In this document: one piece after another, positions 11,077-20,717 of the stretch
How positions within the stretch are numbered: position 1 is the first letter of the stretch
Layout: the number at the start of each line of letters is the position of its first letter
Origin: Bacteroidia bacterium
GTDB taxonomy: Bacteria > Bacteroidota > Bacteroidia > M30B66
Length of the DNA: 64,000 nt
Assembly: GCA_018401705.1 (NCBI GenBank)
Contig: JAGYKL010000005.1
Span: forward strand, 1 to 64,000
Direction: 5' to 3'
Position numbers and translations under genes: made by a program
Notes under the pieces: model-generated
Database searches by the model: none
Told to the model about the DNA's origin: nothing
What the model saw: the letters and a program-made list of their open reading frames with translations, nothing else

Positions 11077-13387
11077 TTACCTAACCCATTTTCGTGCCAC
11101 ACTTCCTTTATCATCACTCATGCGAATGATGTATACCCCTGAAGAATTGGCAGACAGGTCTATTAAGCTAACAAATTCTCCATTCACCTTTAATTCGTTA
11201 GATTGTATTAATTGTCCAGAGGTATTTAACACCTCTATTAATATTGTTTTTTGTGATTTTGATACTCCTGTGATCTGCAGCTGACTTCCGTTAACTGCAT
11301 TAAAATTAAGCCCATAGTCAAATGAAAAGTCATTGATTGAAGTCTTAATAACCTCAACATTTAAAGTTACACTCGTTGTGCCACAAGAGTTTGTAATAGT
11401 TAGTGTAACCGGATATACTCCATCAAACGGGAAAGTATATGACGGTGAAGCTTCTGTACTTGTGGCTCCTTGTCCAAATCCCAAAGATATTCGTCTGCTA
11501 CTTCAGTTGATGTAAATTGTACGTTGTATATTGGAACATCTGTTTGGACATACGTAAAGCTTACAACACTATTTTCAATAAAATTCACAATCACAGCATT
11601 GGAAGATCCTGAACACCCTTGATTATTTTCAGCACTTACAGAGTACAGTCCTGAAGAAGAAACTACTAAAGTTGGTCCTTGACTTGAGTTTGACCACTCA
11701 TAATTAGAGAATCCGCTTTGAGCGGTTAGAGTAATTAGCGGTTGACCATCGCATATGTCTGTACTCCTGAAGGAGTGATGCCTACTGTAAACACAGGCAG
11801 GTAAGAAACATTCACAAAAGATGAAACAGAATTACACCCATTTTCGTCAGTAGCTGTAACTGGTAAGCCCCAGCCGCTGATACTACTAGCTTTCACCATT
11901 TTGATTATTAGACCACATAATCTGTATAACCAGCTTCAGCCTCTAAAGTAACTGTTTCGCCCTGACAAAGGAAACGGACCTGCAGTGTAACTGCGATGGA
12001 GATGGACTTGATACTGATATTTCTATGTCTTCAGAAACACCACCACACTGCCACCTTCATGCTTGAAACAAAATATGTTCCAGATTCAGTAATAGTAGCT
12101 GTTTGTCCACTTGCGCCATTAGGGCCATTGATAATTTGAATAACCATCTTCAGCTGTAAGGATAACTTCCTGACCTGAACAAAACGAAAGTGGACCATTA
12201 GCAGTAACATCAATTACGGCAGAGTTGCCTGCCTGAATAATTACAGGGAGAGGATGTTGAAACACAATTATTTGAACCAGTAGCAGAAACTGTAAGCTTC
12301 CCAATAAAGTAGCATCTAAGCTAGCACCAGCGACTGCTCCTCCTAGAAGATTCCAAGAATAATTCGTGAACCCGCTACTTGCATTTAAAATCACTGATTC
12401 ACCAGGACAAATTGTTAATGGCCCATTAGGCTAATATTTAATGGTAGTGGATTATTGACTGTATCAGTAACCTGAGAAGTTGAAGCACAAGAAGGAGTAC
12501 CTCTATGAACAGAAACAGTATAAGTGGTTAGTGGTTGGAGATGCAATAGGATTAGCAACAGTGAGTGCTACTTAATCCTGATGCAGGTGACCATGAATAG
12601 ACAAATGCTCCTGATTCGAACCACCTGTTGCTGTAGGATTCCTCCCATTGAAGCAGATCCTCCAGAACAAATACTCACATTGGTTCCAGCACTAACTGGG
12701 GAGGAGTGCATGTTTGGGAAGCGACGCTAAGTTGAATATTATCAACGAAAATGCTGGGTCAGATCCTTGATTGTTTGCACTATTTATCCAGCGATAACCA
12801 ATTTTAAAATTTGAAATTCCTTCATACTCAGCACCTAATGTTACAGTAGCAGTTTGACATGATGAGGTAGATTGATAATTGGTAGGAAGTTCATTCCAAG
12901 TGGTTCCCCATTATTACTGAGCATTAACCTTCCATAATCATCGTTAAAGCTTGTCCATTGCAAACCCAATTAAATGTGAGTGTATTGTAGACAAACCAAT
13001 AGTGCTGATATTGGGCGATATTGCTGTTCTGTTGGATGCAGCACTTGCATCGAAGATTACTGCATTTGGTCCACCTAGAAAGCCACAAAGAAACCCTCCA
13101 CATGAAATGTGCAAAGACTGTCCTGAACCACAAGACACACCTGTTGCTGAATTTACATACCATTGGTTTCCTCCTGAACCATCACTATTTAAAGACCATC
13201 CAGCTCCGGCATTGTTGTTATTGGCTCCTCCGGAAGGAGAATCAAAATTATCACTCCAGAAAACTGTTTGAGCTGAAAGTTGACTTGAAAATAAATAGGT
13301 AGCAATAAGAAGGAGTGTTCTGAACAATCCTTGATAAAGTAGTTTTGTCTGATGCATAATACGTAAACCCATTTTTGGATGGTGCAA
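11077..13387 (-). pseudogene. T9SS-secreted adhesin-like protein, multiply frameshifted
   Basis: One gene of about 770 codons can be followed across all three minus frames. The 5' end (13387 down to about 12950) gives a signal peptide ending SSQLSAQ and a cleaved-adhesin/MAM-like start (WSDNFDSP). The middle (about 12400-11600) shows repeated Ig-like units with the pattern VTLTAxxGYxxYxW. The 3' end (11484-11077) is intact for 135 codons, with a PKD-like strand set (YTFPFDGVYPVTLTI) and a Por sorting tail ending VARKWVR. It needs many single-base corrections, while all the surrounding genes are intact. Sequencing error is more likely than true decay. The protein would be surface-exposed or released through the type IX system. 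Confidence 0.75.
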
Positions 13388-13457: not shown

Positions 13458-14645
13458 TCAAAAAACAAACATTACCCTGACCCAAGTTTTGTCCTTATTA
13501 TACTTAACACCAATCATTTCACCGCGACTTAAGCGGCATAGATTAACAAGTAATTCAGGCTTTTCGTTCTCTTGTTCCCAGAAATAAAGTAAGCGGACTT
13601 CAACTTTTATCTTCCCATCAGGCGCCTGAAGAACGGGTTCATACTTTACTTTCTTTTGAAGCATAAATGACTTTCTCTCTTCGAGAGGAATAGCATCAAT
13701 GTCTTCTTTTGTAACATGGAATTTGACCCCGGTTCCAGAAAAAGAAAACAAAGGCTTTAGAACGTAGTTTTCTAAATCTGTTGGAATTTCCTTAACATCA
13801 CTAAGATAACTGCACCAAGGAACATTCTTACTTTCGAGGTAAGGCATGATGAACTTACTCACCCGAAAGAACCAGTTTGGATGTCCAGCCCATTCTACAT
13901 CAACTTCTTCTGTAAGATTAAATTGGCATTTCAGGTCTGATCTCTGACTAAATTCATCAACAATTACACGATTGTAGATTCTATGAATTGGCGTCTTTAC
14001 ATCATTTTTCATGTAAAAAAGCTTTCTCCCTTCGCGTATTACTTTGCTAATGCATAAAGCTTTTACACCAGAAATCTTCTCTGTAACAACAAAGTCTATT
14101 GAAGTAGACTGTTTTTCAGGCTCAACTTCCAGAAGGATTACATTTTCTGGAGAATGTCCATTTAATAAAAGATTCTTTAATCTTTTTCTATACTGCGATG
14201 ATTTTACGCCATGAAAGAAGGCTTCATATCCTTCTGGGCAATAAAAATACTCTTTGTATTTAGACTGAATATAATCCTGAAAGGCAAAAAGAGATGGAAA
14301 TCCTTGAAGTTCTATTAATTGTGGATCAAGTTCTCCATTTTCATCAAGGCATACAGCAAAATCGAGGGCAAGAAATGTTGTGTGAGCATCTTCTCCCGGA
14401 ACGTTCCATTTTGAGGGAATCGCCGGAGCACTTAGTTCTTTAAAGTCATTTCTCAGAAGAGTTTTGATAATATCTTCTCCAGCTTGCTGTAGTTTTAACC
14501 GAAATGATTTTGGGAAAAACACTGGAGATTCTGCTACTCTAAATGTAATCTTGTAATTAAATTCTGAGTTTATATCATCTAGAAATTCTTGATATAGTTC
14601 TTCAGAGAATTCTTCATTATATCGTTTTCGGATGTCTGGAATCAT
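13458..14645 (-). CDS. ATP-grasp-like protein of amidoligase cluster
   Basis: This 395-aa cytosolic protein does not match a named enzyme I can identify. The C-terminal third looks like an ATP-grasp nucleotide site: YVLKPLFSFSGTGV (about 294-307, K297 as ATP lysine), an acidic strand VEVRLLYFWE (348-357) and a late KYNKDKTW (381-388) that could bind metal or substrate. The order recalls circularly permuted ATP-grasp ligases such as glutathionylspermidine synthase, but this is tentative. Its start overlaps the end of the amidotransferase gene by 29 bp, which implies translational coupling. It is the last gene of the transcription unit starting at the GCS2 gene. Probable role: forming an amide bond in an unknown small molecule. 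Confidence 0.7.
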   Translation of the reverse strand: MIPDIRKRYNEEFSEELYQEFLDDINSEFNYKITFRVAESPVFFPKSFRLKLQQAGEDIIKTLLRNDFKELSAPAIPSKWNVPGEDAHTTFLALDFAVCLDENGELDPQLIELQGFPSLFAFQDYIQSKYKEYFYCPEGYEAFFHGVKSSQYRKRLKNLLLNGHSPENVILLEVEPEKQSTSIDFVVTEKISGVKALCISKVIREGRKLFYMKNDVKTPIHRIYNRVIVDEFSQRSDLKCQFNLTEEVDVEWAGHPNWFFRVSKFIMPYLESKNVPWCSYLSDVKEIPTDLENYVLKPLFSFSGTGVKFHVTKEDIDAIPLEERKSFMLQKKVKYEPVLQAPDGKIKVEVRLLYFWEQENEKPELLVNLCRLSRGEMIGVKYNKDKTWVRVMFVF

Positions 14646-15495
14646 AAATCAAGAAAGTATATGAATTTTCTCCTTTCAATGCAGCATGAAGAAAATTAGG
14701 AATGATAACACTTTGCGTTAGCACAATTTTATCAGGATCATTAAGGTGCTCAATCATACTATGGTATTTTTCTTCACCATGCTCCTTGATTACATTTTCT
14801 TTTCTTTCTTCTTGCTGCAAGTGAATAAGCATACCCTCGGCATCTGCTTCTGGATGAAACTGAGTACCAAATACGGTCTCATCAAATCTCATAGCCATAA
14901 CACATCGTTCTAATTTCACATGAGGTCGATATTTCTCAATGCAAAGTACATCTCCGCCATGTGACCTGATTCCTTTCATATCAGGTTGAACAACTTGCCA
15001 ATCTCTGCTATCAACTGCCCAAAATGGGTCTTCTAAACCTTCAAAAAAAGGCTCATAGCTTCCAGAAAAGGTCATATGCACTGGCATTACTCCAAAGCTT
15101 GTTGATAATCGTCTGGTTACTTTGCCAAGCTTATAGTACCTGCAATACAACTGAAACGAATGACAAATTAAAAACAAATACTTTTTCCCTTCCACAACAT
15201 TCATGTTGTGATTATTAAGAGCGTCAAGCAAGCTAAAAAATGCTAATTCCCATTCTTCACCCTCACTGTCAACGGGGCTGCCTGGCCCTCCCGTTGAGAT
15301 ATAAGCGTCATAATTCAGGTCTGGCACCTCTCCCTTACCTCTAACATCATATATTTTGTAATGCAGATCAACACCCGTTTCTTCTGCAAACTCCTTGATA
15401 ATATTACAAATACAACGCATTCCCTGATTCGGGAATCCATCATATAAATCAAGTATTGCAACCCTAAATTCTGTATTTAGCTCTCTTAACCGCAT
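14617..15495 (-). CDS. Class I glutamine amidotransferase-like protein
   Basis: This 292-aa protein has the triad layout of class I amidotransferases: C111 in YLFLICHSFQL, H214 and E216 in GTQFHPEAD. An early STGGPGSP (67-74) forms the expected oxyanion-side loop. The nucleophile elbow is unusual: the family normally has Gly-x-Cys-x-Gly, but here it is Leu-Ile-Cys-His-Ser. About 70 extra C-terminal residues follow the domain. In family terms it would release ammonia from glutamine, or cleave a gamma-glutamyl bond like the peptidases of this fold. It sits between the GCS2 ligase gene (27 bp upstream) and the overlapping ATP-grasp-like gene, so processing of a gamma-glutamyl intermediate is plausible. 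Confidence 0.85.
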   Translation of the reverse strand: MRLRELNTEFRVAILDLYDGFPNQGMRCICNIIKEFAEETGVDLHYKIYDVRGKGEVPDLNYDAYISTGGPGSPVDSEGEEWELAFFSLLDALNNHNMNVVEGKKYLFLICHSFQLYCRYYKLGKVTRRLSTSFGVMPVHMTFSGSYEPFFEGLEDPFWAVDSRDWQVVQPDMKGIRSHGGDVLCIEKYRPHVKLERCVMAMRFDETVFGTQFHPEADAEGMLIHLQQEERKENVIKEHGEEKYHSMIEHLNDPDKIVLTQSVIIPNFLHAALKGENSYTFLIYDSRHPKTI

Positions 15496-15522
15496 CCTGT
15501 AAAATATGTATTAGGCTATTAA

Positions 15523-16626
15523 TTAAAGTCCGGCCATAGACTCTTCAACCAAATAATCGACCACCTTCACCAGATCGCCGGTTTCTTCATAAATCTTCAA
15601 TTGCCTGTCGGCACCAGTGCCTTCGTCAAGTATTTTATGAACATAATTAATTGCTTCTCTACAGCCCAAATCATCAACTACATCATCAATAAACTCTAGC
15701 AATTCAATAATGAGTGAACGAGTTCTCACTTCTTCTTCTTTACCAAAATCTATCATTTTACCATCAATACCATATCGACCGGCTCTCCATTTATTTTCAT
15801 TAATGAGAGCCCTGGTATATGTCATAAAATTAAGGTTGGCAGTTCTTAATTTATAAAGTTTTGCAACAAGAGATTGAAAAATCGCAGCAATAGCGATAGT
15901 TTCATCGATACGTGTTGGACAATCGCAAATTCTGAATTCTATTGTTGGAAAGAAAGGGTGAACTCTTAAATCCCACCAAATTTTCTTAGCATTGTCAATA
16001 CATCCTGTTTTAACGAGAAGATTTACATAACTGATAAAATCCTCATATGTATTAAACATGTCAGGAATTCCAGTTCTGGGAAACTTATCAAACACCTTAG
16101 ATCTAAAACTTTTGAACCCAGTATTTCTACCTTCCCAAAACGGAGAATTCGTACTCAGTGCATACACGTGAGGTAAAAAGTACCTAACAGAATTGGCAAT
16201 ATGCATTGCCATGTTCTTATCTTCAATTCCCACGTGCACGTGGAGACCGAAAATTAAGTTTGATCTAGCAGCCTCTTGCAACTCATTCACGATTTCATCA
16301 TAACGAGGATTAGGCGTTATAAGCTGAGTGCTCCAATGAGAAAATGGATGTGTTCCGGCGGCAGCAATTCGCAAGCCTTGTTCTTTTGCTATATCTCCTA
16401 CTGCCCTTCTCAACTTGCCCAGGTCGTTGCGGGCTTCATCAATGTTTGCGCAAATACCGGTGCCTACTTCAACCACAGCTTGATGCATTTCTGCTTTCAC
16501 CTGATCATCGAGCAGCCTCCCGGCAATTTCAACAATTTTTTGATCATGCGAAGTTAATTCGCGGGTTTCAGGATGAACAACCATGTATTCCTCCTCGATG
16601 CCTAAAGTAAATGATGGGTTTGACAC
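15523..16626 (-). CDS. GCS2-type carboxylate-amine ligase (YbdK-like)
   Basis: This glutamate-cysteine ligase family 2 enzyme joins a carboxylate (often glutamate) to an amine using ATP. The family hallmarks are FTLGIEEEY at the N-terminus (E11-E13), HPFSHW, HVHVG (129-133) and RICDCPTR. I prefer the GTG at 16626 (367 aa), which places the FTLGIEEEY motif where it usually begins; an in-frame GTG at 16665 would add 13 residues lying over the terminator and promoter-like sequence. The terminator at 16658-16700 separates it from the upstream ATP-grasp gene, so it probably has its own promoter (TATTTTG near 16643-16649, weak). The substrate is unknown; true glutathione synthesis is not implied by this family. 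Confidence 0.88.
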   Translation of the reverse strand: MSNPSFTLGIEEEYMVVHPETRELTSHDQKIVEIAGRLLDDQVKAEMHQAVVEVGTGICANIDEARNDLGKLRRAVGDIAKEQGLRIAAAGTHPFSHWSTQLITPNPRYDEIVNELQEAARSNLIFGLHVHVGIEDKNMAMHIANSVRYFLPHVYALSTNSPFWEGRNTGFKSFRSKVFDKFPRTGIPDMFNTYEDFISYVNLLVKTGCIDNAKKIWWDLRVHPFFPTIEFRICDCPTRIDETIAIAAIFQSLVAKLYKLRTANLNFMTYTRALINENKWRAGRYGIDGKMIDFGKEEEVRTRSLIIELLEFIDDVVDDLGCREAINYVHKILDEGTGADRQLKIYEETGDLVKVVDYLVEESMAGL

Positions 16627-16657
16627 GTAGTAGATGAGATTAGAACATGCAAAATAG

Positions 16658-16700
16658 AAAAACACCGGATAACTCTTAATGAGCTCCGGTGTTTTTTATT
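16658..16700 (-). terminator. Terminator inside the amidoligase cluster
   Basis: AAAAACACCGGA (16658-16669) pairs with TCCGGTGTTTTT (16685-16696). Read on the minus strand it ends in a T-run just after the stop of the ATP-grasp gene at 16710. It splits the cluster into two transcription units, or attenuates read-through into the GCS2 gene. Confidence 0.8.
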
Positions 16701-16709
16701 GCCTAATAT

Positions 16710-17816
16710 TTAAGCCTTTTCAGCTACAGCTTTTTTAGCAGGAGCTTTCTTAGCAGCTTCCTTCTTTACTGACTCAGCCTTAGCCGTTGCAGTTTTTGCA
16801 GCTTTAGGTGCAGCCTCCTTTGTAGCTGGTTTAGCTGGAGTAGCCTTAGCAGCTGGTTTAGAAGCAGGGCTTAATTTAAGAGCTCCCTTAGAAACAAAAG
16901 AACCCCAAGTTAAATTATCCTGTCCCGGTTTTTGTGCTTTTGCGCGTTCGATAGCCAGATTAGCAGCAGCTTCAACAACCCAATCAAAATTCTCTTGTCC
17001 AACACTGTTTACATCAGCATCAGGAGCTGGGTTACAGAAGTCGATTGCGTAAGGAATACCATCTTTAACAGCAAATTCAACCGTATTAAAATCATAACCT
17101 AAAGCCTTGTTAAGTTTGATAACATAGTCTTCGATTGTTTTAAGCAGCTTAGCTGAGGAAGGCTTAGAATCAACAACGTAACGTAAATGATGTGGATTAC
17201 GTGGCTCATATTGCATGATTCGAACGTTATCGCCTCCGATGCAATAGCATCTGTAATACTCTTCAAATACGATTTCTTCCTGAAGCATCATGACTAACTG
17301 ACCAGTTTCGTGATAAGCTTCGAAAAACTCTTCGCGGTTATTTATTTTATAAACGCTTTTCCAACCACCACCCGAGTGTGGCTTCATGTATGCTGGAAAA
17401 CCGATGTGATTAAAAATTGCATCCCAACTTAAAGGAAAATGTAGGTTTTTAAAAGAATCTTCGCTTGTGTCAGTAGGACGTTCAACAGATGGCAAAAGCA
17501 CTGTTTTAGGAACTGGAACTCCAATCTGCACGGCTAGAGCGTTATTGAAGAACTTCTCGTCGGCACTCCACCAAAATGGGTTATTGATAACTGCTGTTCC
17601 TGAAATAGCTGCATTCTTTAAGTATGCACGGTAAAATGGTACATCCTGAGAAATTCTGTCGATAATAACAGCATATTCTGTTGGTTCAGCCTGACTAACT
17701 ACATCAATCTTGGCAATTTCAGCTTTGATGTCTTTGATACCTTTAGAGTTAATTCTCTCTACAACTGCTTCCGGAAAAGAGCTTTCCATTCCGTGTAAAA
17801 TTCCGATTTTTTTCAT
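16710..17816 (-). CDS. ATP-grasp ligase with histone-H1-like C-terminal tail
   Basis: This 368-aa protein has a RimK/Ddl-type ATP-grasp core in residues 1-310. The glycine-rich ATP loop is PAYMKPHSGGGWKSVY (141-156), and the metal/ATP site is the AIDFCNPAPDADVNSVG stretch (257-273). Residues 312-368 are a low-complexity Lys-Ala-Pro tail (KPAAKATPAKPATKEAAPKA and on), like bacterial histone H1-like or AlgP-type tails, probably disordered and able to bind nucleic acid or other polyanions. The enzyme should ligate a carboxylate to an amine. The upstream esterase gene ends 46 bp before it, in the same unit. The tail is in frame and ends at a normal stop just before the terminator. Confidence 0.85.
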   Translation of the reverse strand: MKKIGILHGMESSFPEAVVERINSKGIKDIKAEIAKIDVVSQAEPTEYAVIIDRISQDVPFYRAYLKNAAISGTAVINNPFWWSADEKFFNNALAVQIGVPVPKTVLLPSVERPTDTSEDSFKNLHFPLSWDAIFNHIGFPAYMKPHSGGGWKSVYKINNREEFFEAYHETGQLVMMLQEEIVFEEYYRCYCIGGDNVRIMQYEPRNPHHLRYVVDSKPSSAKLLKTIEDYVIKLNKALGYDFNTVEFAVKDGIPYAIDFCNPAPDADVNSVGQENFDWVVEAAANLAIERAKAQKPGQDNLTWGSFVSKGALKLSPASKPAAKATPAKPATKEAAPKAAKTATAKAESVKKEAAKKAPAKKAVAEKA

Positions 17817-17861
17817 TGTGTCTGGGTTTATTGTTGTTTAGGGTTATTCTGTTTATTAATT

Positions 17862-18569
17862 TTAATTGATTAAAGAAAGGTAATGCGAAAACATGCCTTT
17901 CCAGGCTGGCCAGTCATGATTAGCTCCTTCGCGAATGTCTAACCAGTGTTTTTGACCTTTTTGTCTTAAAATATCTGCAAACTTAATATTGGCGTCAAGA
18001 CAAATATCATTAGTTCCGGTTCCTAATACCACATGCAAATCATTCAACCAAGGATTACTTGATGAAGGTACAAAATCAGGTGGATTATTAAAGTATACAT
18101 TGTCATCATAATAGCCGTCAAGCTGAGATTTGATATCGAACTTGGCTCCCATCGCAAAGATGTATTTAACAAACTCAGGGTGTTTAAATCCCGCGTTAGC
18201 GGCATGATATCCTCCAAAACTACAGCCTGCCAAAGCAATTCTATCAACTCCAGAAGCTTGTTGTATATGAGGAAATAACTCTTTTACAAGCATTTCGTCA
18301 TACCAAATATGATTTTGAACCCTTTGACCCGGGTGAACTGAACGATTATACCAGCTTAAATGATCAACACTATCGGGACAATAAATTCTAATAAGACCTT
18401 CGTTGATGTACCATGAAACAGACTCTATTAAACCAAAGTCCTTATTTTCATGATAACGCCCCATAGAAGTCGGAAACAAGACAACAGGAAAGCCCCTATC
18501 TCCAAATTCCAGCATTTGCATTTCGCAGTTTAGTTGATTTGAATACCAACGATGATAGCGCTCCTTCAA
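17862..18569 (-). CDS. Esterase-D-like alpha/beta hydrolase
   Basis: This 235-aa cytosolic hydrolase is of the putative-esterase family (PF00756 type). The nucleophile elbow is GCSFGG (S117), the likely acid is D188 in GTGTNDIC, and the His is H218 in GANHDW. The start is TTG at 18569; the nearby ATG is out of frame and meets a stop, and homologues of this type begin with a similar YHRWYS motif. It is the first gene of the minus-strand unit read from the promoter at 18659-18688, with a leader of roughly 80 bases holding an imperfect hairpin (18590-18598 with 18628-18639). Its place at the head of an amidoligase cluster suggests it trims or releases the product. Confidence 0.85.
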   Translation of the reverse strand: MKERYHRWYSNQLNCEMQMLEFGDRGFPVVLFPTSMGRYHENKDFGLIESVSWYINEGLIRIYCPDSVDHLSWYNRSVHPGQRVQNHIWYDEMLVKELFPHIQQASGVDRIALAGCSFGGYHAANAGFKHPEFVKYIFAMGAKFDIKSQLDGYYDDNVYFNNPPDFVPSSSNPWLNDLHVVLGTGTNDICLDANIKFADILRQKGQKHWLDIREGANHDWPAWKGMFSHYLSLIN

Positions 18570-18658
18570 GTTAACATTTTATTAATATTCTCACAATAAA
18601 CAATCACTCGCTTAAAAATTATCGGCATATTGTTGTGAGATGTTTAACAAATCGGGCG

Positions 18659-18688
18659 CAAAGATAGCAAATTCATTAAATTAACAAA
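18659..18688 (-). promoter_or_regulatory. Promoter of the amidoligase cluster
   Basis: On the minus strand, TTTG (18688-18685), 18 bases, then TATCTTTG (18666-18659) followed by C is an almost ideal Bacteroidota -33/-7 pair. It faces the esterase and ATP-grasp genes. The divergent esterase gene starts about 65 bp to the right. Confidence 0.75.
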
Positions 18689-18752
18689 AATGTTGATATA
18701 ATATTATAAACAGCATGTGAATAAGCTTGCATATTCTACAATTTTGCTGCCT

Positions 18753-19595
18753 ATGGAGAATACCCGCAAAGAGCAGACAACAATAAATTCTCAAAAAGAA
18801 ATTAGTTGGGATAAACATAGAATAGAAGGAATTCATTCTACAATGCTCGACCGAGTGGTGAATGTAGAAGTTTTTACTCCACCATCATTTAAAAGCTCAT
18901 CGCAATCTTTGCCAGTTTTGATTTTGAATGATGGTCAGGATAGTGAAACAATGAATTTGCTTGAAATTTTGAATCAACTTCAAAAAGACGAAGAGATTTC
19001 TCCATTTATCGTTGCAGGGGTTTTCTGTGGAGATAGGATTCAGGAATATGGAGTGGCCTCAAAGCCCGATTATAAAAAACGAGGAAGTAAGGCCAAAGCA
19101 TACAGCCGCTTTGTGATTGAACATCTCTTACCTACTCTTTCTCATAGGTTTAGAGTAGACTTAAACCATCCTCAAAATGCTATTGCAGGTTATAGTATGG
19201 GCGGACTTTCTGCCATGGACATAGCATGGAATCACCCTGAATATTTCCCAAGAATGGGAGCTTTTTCAGGTTCATTCTGGTGGAGAAAGAAAGGTCTTGA
19301 TCAGGGTTATTCTGAACATGACAGAATCATTCACGGCCTGATTCGCAAAAGCAGAATTCGTAAGGGTATGAAGTTTTGGTTTATGGCAGGAACCGAAGAT
19401 GAAAAAGCTGACCGGAATAAGAATGGAATCATTGATGCGATTGACGATACCCTTGATTTGATTGCTGAACTAATTAAGCTTGGCTACAAGCCTTACTACG
19501 ATGTTGCTTATTACGAAGTAAAAGGAGGAAAGCACGATGTTCCAACATGGGGAAGGGCCATGCCTGAGTTTTTGAAATGGGCTTACGGTAAATAA
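18753..19595 (+). CDS. Putative esterase with EF-hand-like loop
   Basis: This 280-aa alpha/beta hydrolase is of the same broad esterase family as the divergent neighbour. The nucleophile elbow is GYSMGG (S148) and the His is H261 in GGKHDVPTW. Between them, DRNKNGIIDAIDD (220-232) has the Asp-x-Asn-x-Asn-Gly-x-Ile-Asp spacing of a calcium-binding EF-hand/dockerin-type loop, unusual inside an esterase. No signal peptide is visible. I chose the ATG at 18753; a GTG at 18717 would add 12 residues. It is divergent from the amidoligase operon across a shared 184-bp region, so co-regulation is likely. The substrate is unknown; Fes-type siderophore esterases share the fold. Confidence 0.8.
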   Translation: MENTRKEQTTINSQKEISWDKHRIEGIHSTMLDRVVNVEVFTPPSFKSSSQSLPVLILNDGQDSETMNLLEILNQLQKDEEISPFIVAGVFCGDRIQEYGVASKPDYKKRGSKAKAYSRFVIEHLLPTLSHRFRVDLNHPQNAIAGYSMGGLSAMDIAWNHPEYFPRMGAFSGSFWWRKKGLDQGYSEHDRIIHGLIRKSRIRKGMKFWFMAGTEDEKADRNKNGIIDAIDDTLDLIAELIKLGYKPYYDVAYYEVKGGKHDVPTWGRAMPEFLKWAYGK

Positions 19596-20717
19596 CTAAT
19601 CGTTACTACGTAGAAACCTAACTTGTGTCATACTTGATTTAAGTATGTAAACTCCTGGGCTTAAGTTCTTCACAGAAATAAGGGCTTTTTTATCAGAAAC
19701 TTCGCCTGAGGCAACTGTTTGGCCACTCATGTTAATTATCTCGTATTTACCAATGTTAAGCTTAAAACTTTCTATGGTAATGATTTCCCCTGCGGGGGAA
19801 GGATACACACTCAATATGTTGTCATTGCTACCTGCATTTTGTAATGCTACTTCATCGCAAGTATGACTGCCGCTAACGCGGGAAGATGTAGCAAGAGAAT
19901 CTGAAAAAATCTCAAAAGCTAAGTTGTTTTCTAATAAGAAAGTTTCGAAAAGTGGGTCTAAAAAATCGAACAAGACATCTTGTTGCTGAGCTCGTGTAAT
20001 TTGGATGTTAGAACCAGAAGTTGTTTCGCCGAAATCGCAGAAGAAATTAGTTTGTGCAAAATAGCAATGAGCTCCGCCAATTATATTAATAAAACCCTTG
20101 CATGATGCATTGCAAGCATCATACATTGGAATATGATTTTCAGAAGGAGGAGTAACTGCATCACCTTCACCCGAAAACACAAAGCTTGGGATATTGATTA
20201 AAGAAGAAGCCGTAATTGCCGAAGGATTTGTTTCTGCGGGTGCCATTCCGATTAACAGATCGGGCTGTTCATCCTGCGAAGCAGCTAAAAATGCTGCGCC
20301 ACCTCCCATTGAATGTCCAAGATATGCAACCCTAGCTCCTTCAATACCGCTTAAGCTTAAGTTGTTTTTAACAAAGACATAATCTGCTGCAAAATCACCA
20401 TGACTCACGCTAAAGAGTCCGTTTTCTGTATCCAGCATTGCAAATACATATCCTTTAGGAACAAAAAAGCTTGAAATGTTCTCGTAAGCAGAATAAGTCA
20501 TTGAAAAACCATGACCTAAGATGATTAGTGGAAATACTCCTTCTGCCCATTCAGCATTATTACCTGCAGTTACTGCTGGATAATAAATCTCAACAGGAAT
20601 TGTTCTATTCCTGGAATCGTCTTGAAGATCAACCGAACTTCTACCAATAGCAAAAGTTTGGGCTTGTGACGACAACCCAATGAACAAACAAAAAGCAATT
20701 GGTAAAATCAGTTTCAT
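19596..20717 (-). CDS. T9SS-secreted alpha/beta hydrolase
   Basis: This 373-aa protein has a signal peptide ending SSQAQ (residue 20), a hydrolase domain with nucleophile elbow GHSMGG (S136), acid D186 in GEGDAVTP and H217 in GGAHCYF, and a C-terminal Por sorting domain (about 301-373, with the SVYPSPAGE and LSPGVYILK signatures). The fold is close to chlorophyllase or PAF-acetylhydrolase-type lipases. It should be carried to the cell surface by the type IX system. The ATG at 20717 overlaps the alaS stop in an ATGA junction; a longer reading frame upstream lies within alaS and gives no signal peptide. The 3' end abuts the convergent esterase gene with no spacer. Confidence 0.85.
   Translation of the reverse strand: MKLILPIAFCLFIGLSSQAQTFAIGRSSVDLQDDSRNRTIPVEIYYPAVTAGNNAEWAEGVFPLIILGHGFSMTYSAYENISSFFVPKGYVFAMLDTENGLFSVSHGDFAADYVFVKNNLSLSGIEGARVAYLGHSMGGGAAFLAASQDEQPDLLIGMAPAETNPSAITASSLINIPSFVFSGEGDAVTPPSENHIPMYDACNASCKGFINIIGGAHCYFAQTNFFCDFGETTSGSNIQITRAQQQDVLFDFLDPLFETFLLENNLAFEIFSDSLATSSRVSGSHTCDEVALQNAGSNDNILSVYPSPAGEIITIESFKLNIGKYEIINMSGQTVASGEVSDKKALISVKNLSPGVYILKSSMTQVRFLRSND

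Follow-up and report, generated by a model that had tools for sequence, protein, structure and literature searches.

A conserved six-gene ligase and hydrolase cluster of Bacteroidota as a candidate pathway for a gamma-glutamyl (pseudo)peptide

In the Puu pathway of putrescine utilisation, PuuA acts as a gamma-glutamyl ligase and PuuD as a gamma-glutamyl hydrolase of the class I amidotransferase fold. YgiC of Escherichia coli is annotated as a peptide-spermidine ligase, and both YgiC and YjfC are described as such in PMC12568646, which cites Pederick 2023. Ligases like GCS2, or of its size, that are encoded beside amidotransferase-like thiol peptidases were read as part of glutathione-related peptide metabolism in PMC2588565 (2008). 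Here, a cluster of six genes (A to F, positions 13458-19595) was analyzed by profile searches, fold prediction and genome comparison in a 64,000-nucleotide stretch (the window) of contig JAGYKL010000005.1 from a Bacteroidia bacterium (assembly GCA_018401705.1). The cluster encodes three predicted ligases, a thiol hydrolase and two putative esterases, and its genes appear to have been inherited together across the phylum Bacteroidota. With a probability of about 45%, it may encode a small pathway for the synthesis and breakdown of a (pseudo)peptide that is amide-linked and probably contains a gamma-glutamyl unit, by the logic of glutathione and glutathionylspermidine; because a GCS2-like ligase is paired with an amidotransferase-like thiol peptidase in PMC2588565, this logic has precedent.

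All six open reading frames (ORFs) listed by the first-pass annotation, which had been made from the letters of the window alone, were confirmed at their coordinates. Five of them form one tight run on the minus strand, namely B (17862-18569, an alpha/beta hydrolase and putative esterase), C (16710-17816, a predicted RimK/LysX/Ddl-type ATP-grasp ligase whose C-terminal tail is disordered and rich in Lys and Ala), D (15523-16665, a predicted GCS2/YbdK-type gamma-glutamyl carboxylate-amine ligase), E (14617-15495, a thiol hydrolase of the class I glutamine-amidotransferase fold) and F (13458-14645, a 395-residue protein predicted to be a circularly permuted ATP-grasp ligase). A second alpha/beta hydrolase, the putative enterochelin-esterase-like protein A (18717-19595, plus strand), is divergent from B, an arrangement kept at 30 of the 80 loci compared below, and is separated from it by an intergenic region of 147 bp (18570-18716). 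The close spacing was also as described, with E and F overlapping by 29 bp and the other gaps on the minus strand measuring 27-45 bp.

Conservation was assessed in 396 genomes of this single phylum, one genome per species. Relatives of F with 33-55% identity over nearly the full length were detected by the F search in 114 of the 396 genomes, two extra weak matches being left out of the count. After a comparison of 40 neighbourhoods, synteny was counted at the best 80 named loci of a contig scan. The order B-C-D-E-F on one strand was present at 58 of these 80 loci, across many family-level groups, with A divergent beside B in 30 of the 58 and further downstream in 12; several of the remaining loci stop at a contig edge. 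Genera with the cluster include Spirosoma, Larkinella, Dyadobacter, Hymenobacter, Algoriphagus, Flavobacterium and Chitinophaga, and it was also found in one metagenome-assembled genome of Ignavibacteriaceae. Over 61 loci, pairwise distances correlated at 0.78-0.92 among B, C, D, E and F, and such matched divergence is the pattern of jointly inherited genes.

Separate searches of the 396 genomes placed F together with D in 109 of the 114 genomes with F, together with C in 110, and together with both in 105 (Fisher p about 1e-68, a value that ignores kinship and is indicative only). About 20 genomes carried D or C without F. In one family, D-C-A and F-E occupy separate loci, the latter in some cases next to an Amidohydro_3 gene, and other families carry a lone F with D and C elsewhere in the same genome. 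Because the co-occurrence holds at unlinked loci too, the association of C, D and F is functional and goes beyond mere position. The proposal in the first-pass annotation that the six genes form one functional unit, which hinged on their staying together in related genomes, thus survived the neighbourhood comparison and is backed by synteny, unlinked co-occurrence and matched divergence. Phage or plasmid cargo was rejected as an explanation, since neither F nor C matched PHROG and F was absent from all 72,556 plasmids searched, and so was a defence system, with no match in PADLOC.

D scored far above cut-off, as it matched PF04107 with 220 bits (cut-off, 21) and passed the NCBIfam equivalog PRK13515/NF010039 'carboxylate-amine ligase' with 547 bits (cut-off, 371). 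The GhExE Mg/ATP signature, described for GCS2 and its kin in PMC2588565, is present in D as GIEEE at residue 22, and D is accordingly classed, by sequence, as a probable gamma-glutamyl-type carboxylate-amine ligase. Its ORF was drawn from the furthest upstream start, and the family length suggests a true start a few codons further in. C had no Pfam match and scored 36 bits with the RimK family TIGR00768, below the curated cut-off of 143.4 bits. Its nearest folds in Foldseek were Ddl, LysX/ArgX and RimK, obtained with a model of moderate confidence in which the tail is disordered, and K145, E180, E247, D259 and N262 were conserved in the alignment. The C-terminus of C (16710-16890) is a Lys/Ala/Pro-rich tail resembling that of histone H1, which is odd on a metabolic ligase; among relatives the tail measures between 3 and about 120 residues, some families having a long one and others hardly any. 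A third ATP-grasp gene (about 405 residues) and an M17 leucyl aminopeptidase gene were observed with esterase A beside the cluster at one locus (L113:11242-14114), and the same grouping recurred at about 11 other loci in Flavobacteriaceae and related groups. Flavobacterium is among the genera with this arrangement.

F, searched as a single sequence, had no match in Pfam, NCBIfam or the PDB sequences. The label 'ATP-grasp-like' that it had been given nevertheless proved right, by fold prediction of the 395-residue protein and by profile search. The AlphaFold2 (AF2) model, built with an alignment of 38 relatives, had a predicted local distance difference test score (pLDDT) of 91.9. Foldseek against the PDB returned eukaryotic glutathione synthetases first and YgiC, YjfC and GspS thereafter, with E values of 3e-13 to 5e-12 for glutathione synthetases, Mfla_0391 and YgiC, and of 3e-13 to 5e-10 when YjfC and GspS were included (probability, 1.00; template modelling score (TM-score), 0.5-0.6). 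Cp1B (9cjn) was also in this group, all folds of which were matched at E < 1e-6, and no other significant match was obtained from the PDB. The F family profile matched YgiC (E 0.016), and its lysine/glycine-rich loop VLKPLFSFxGxGV aligned with YgiC VVKPIFSREGANV in the profile alignment. PF03738 (GSP_synth) was matched weakly by 16 of the 38 relatives (best E 5e-5) and not by F of the window itself. According to the model, F is best described as a circularly permuted ATP-grasp protein, in which the acidic metal motif (D95...E112-x-Q114) precedes the lysine loop (K297), and as a putative new subfamily of the fold group of eukaryotic glutathione synthetase, GspS and YgiC.

Among the 38 relatives of F, D95, E112, K297, G304 and G306 were invariant, as were Q179 and Y-x-R226 (38/38), and E173 was nearly so (35/38, with D in three). 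The spacing of E173, Q179 and R226 resembles, in a match made by eye, that of E214, Q220 and R267 of human glutathione synthetase (2hgs), its gamma-glutamyl-binding residues; hhalign covered the K loop only, and a global profile alignment of F with glutathione synthetase failed.

Several further observations concern F and its surroundings. The last ~8 codons of F in the window (13458-13500) are out of the family frame and read WVRVMFVF against a consensus of WVGG..FFE, by mutation or assembly error. In one genus, a sodium:solute symporter carries F as a C-terminal fusion (L044:7937-10540, L056:8002-10636 and L057:7973-10650), the symporter-F stretch of L056 and L057 being split across two frames with the F domain behind the C-terminal half of the symporter, and at L045 F adjoins a sodium:dicarboxylate symporter. 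An ornithine aminotransferase gene lies directly 3' of F on the same strand at L086, L090, L096, L100, L103, L110, L115 and L129, in several Cytophagales including Dyadobacter, Arundinibacter and Telluribacter, and is located on another contig in the present genome. This downstream gene is a hint that a building block may be related to ornithine or arginine.

E scored just above the cut-off of PF00117 (23.5 against 22.8 bits), and its previously proposed triad C111, H214 and E216 was invariant in all 17 relatives compared. In six genomes an M29-type aminopeptidase takes the place of E between D and F, and no E was detected elsewhere in these genomes at E<=1e-10; another eleven have E and no M29 in the slot, and two have neither. 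Since two unrelated hydrolases swap in one slot, E is suggested to hydrolyse the product or an intermediate rather than to donate ammonia. An Amidohydro_3 enzyme was also observed repeatedly beside F or E in genomes without esterase B or with a lone F (L166:9234-10865, L178:6637-8466 and L048:10531-11988).

The two esterases are less readily placed. A matched PF00756 with 106.7 bits, with a true start that may be further in, and B matched the same family weakly (27.8 bits; cut-off, 22), with Ser117 and His218 invariant in the alignment. The first-pass annotation had expected a product of non-ribosomal-peptide-like or gamma-glutamyl type that is kept as a protective ester until the esterases release it. 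The first part agrees with the presence of ligases of the kind that builds amide and gamma-glutamyl bonds. The ester part is not supported: the cluster has no ester-forming enzyme, its esterases are absent more often than its other parts, and the enzymes found in place of E or alongside it (M29, M17 and Amidohydro_3) are peptidases or amidohydrolases. A near-ideal promoter reported between A and B was not borne out, since the region holds one sigma-70-like site against 1.2 expected by chance, and that by E. coli hexamers, which are not of the Bacteroidota type.

In the pathway proposed, D would activate the gamma-carboxylate of glutamate and join it to an amino acid or amine (gamma-Glu-X), C would add another unit by a Ddl/RimK reaction, and F would phosphorylate a carboxylate of the growing compound and cap it with an amino acid or amine. 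Hydrolysis of the product or of a by-product would fall to E, or to the aminopeptidase in its place, with A and B as accessory hydrolases. The order of these steps, the gamma-glutamyl intermediate, the capping amine and the part of E in recycling are what we infer. Four points weigh against the scheme. Five genomes with F are without a strong D and four are without C, among them one family (G037, G064 and G158) with C-E-F and no strong D, and no single ligase would therefore be indispensable. The likeness to E214/Q220/R267 has only the eye behind it, the profile alignment backing the lysine loop. F is without the Arg of the R-x-D...E-x-N motif (position 93 is A, Q or V) and has Gln114 in place of the Asn, although D95 and E112 are kept, so that its chemistry could have drifted; in Cp1B, alanine changes in this motif (R139, D141, E163 and N165) abolished or strongly weakened activity (PMC12568646). 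Finally, A and B have no explained role.

The likeness of C to RimK and LysX in both profile and fold invites a different view, in which the cluster modifies a protein or polymer: C would act on a protein tail as RimK does, D and F would add gamma-linked units to proteins or a surface polymer, and E and the peptidases would trim them. LysX and ArgX act on a carrier protein, PMC2588565 describes GCS2 as related to the Pup ligase, and the Lys-rich tail of C could dock on nucleic acid or an acidic protein. The cluster, however, contains no carrier protein or small conserved ORF and most of its gaps are too small for one, the nearest folds of F act on small peptides, and the tail of C all but disappears in several families, so we regard such modification as unlikely. 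Assimilation or salvage, in which an imported or degraded amine or peptide would receive a gamma-glutamyl tag as in Puu and E would remove it like PuuD, seems doubtful to us on other grounds. E shares its fold class with PuuD, F is fused to or adjoins symporters in the loci mentioned above, and ornithine aminotransferase follows F in several Cytophagales; against this, the cluster is without an oxidase or dehydrogenase of the Puu kind, and two or three serial ligases exceed the needs of a tag.

GCS2 combined with a glutathione-synthetase fold is also the logic of glutathione itself, and the cluster might be supposed to make the low-molecular-weight thiol of the cell in its place. The bacillithiol gene bshC was found in 385 of the 396 genomes, including the present one, so that these genomes have a thiol system whether or not they carry the cluster; a role as the cell's own main thiol system was rejected as quite improbable, and because bshC is almost always present the product would be an additional metabolite. 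A ribosomal peptide (graspetide) or one-off secondary-metabolite cluster is highly improbable: the ATP-grasp macrocyclases MdnC and PsnB are among the fold matches of C, but no precursor-peptide gene was found in the 27-45 bp gaps of the window or as a shared ORF of at least 80 residues there across loci (the search did not extend to shorter ORFs in wider intergenic regions at other loci), and inheritance is coherent through the phylum, with matched divergence and no F on plasmids.

The preferred reading, a gamma-glutamyl (pseudo)peptide pathway, can be extended only tentatively to a widespread and unnamed cofactor or protectant of Bacteroidota, which would be made beside bacillithiol by a three-ligase route of GCS2, a Ddl-type enzyme and a new ATP-grasp of glutathione-synthetase fold with an altered motif. 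About three in ten sampled Bacteroidota species carry the set, which is widespread in soil and water members, and its divergence is matched phylum-wide, implying that the product must be useful. The cluster provides an exact list of genes for study in the easily grown Flavobacterium, Algoriphagus or Dyadobacter, and F offers enzymology a defined target, a ligase family whose catalytic residues are changed and for which single-sequence searches give neither a Pfam model nor a solved relative. No publication on the six-gene set was found in searches mainly of open-access literature, which agrees within that scope with the earlier statement that the set has no assigned product; an earlier description of the neighbourhood is possible.

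On either side of the cluster, other genes were noted. Directly after esterase A, 19596-20717 encodes a PETase-like alpha/beta hydrolase (PF12740, E 2.5e-14) with a type IX secretion system (T9SS) sorting tail. Minus-strand fragments of 135, 91 and 147 residues at 11077-13387 resemble one frame-broken secreted surface protein, with a signal peptide at the start and a sorting-tail-like end.

Compared with the described systems, the cluster resembles Puu in pairing a gamma-glutamyl ligase with a hydrolase of the class I amidotransferase fold, but has ATP-grasp ligases and no oxidase or dehydrogenase. The E-64 pathway (Cp1B and an amide synthetase) is fungal and, in the consulted sections of PMC12568646, is described without GCS2, a glutamine amidotransferase or esterases; F belongs to another subfamily than Cp1B, which shares its fold group, and the stepwise assembly of acid, amino acid and amine is alike. 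The neighbourhoods of PMC2588565, so far as consulted, feature a ligase of another family and do not describe two ATP-grasps and esterases, whereas the pairing of a ligase with an amidotransferase-fold peptidase is common to both. With glutathione and homoglutathione biosynthesis, the cluster shares a GCS2 gamma-glutamyl ligase paired with an ATP-grasp of the eukaryotic glutathione synthetase fold; it differs in that F does not match glutathione synthetase significantly in sequence and has no catalytic Arg, in the addition of C, E and the esterases, and in the bacillithiol genes of its hosts. F is below the PF03738 threshold and differs from GspS, YgiC and YjfC in the R-x-D...E-x-N motif and in the loop residues after the lysine, but shares their fold and, with YgiC, the aligned lysine/glycine loop. 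As in GspS, an amide hydrolase is coupled to a ligase, the two being fused in GspS and separate in the cluster, where the hydrolase E has the class I amidotransferase fold.

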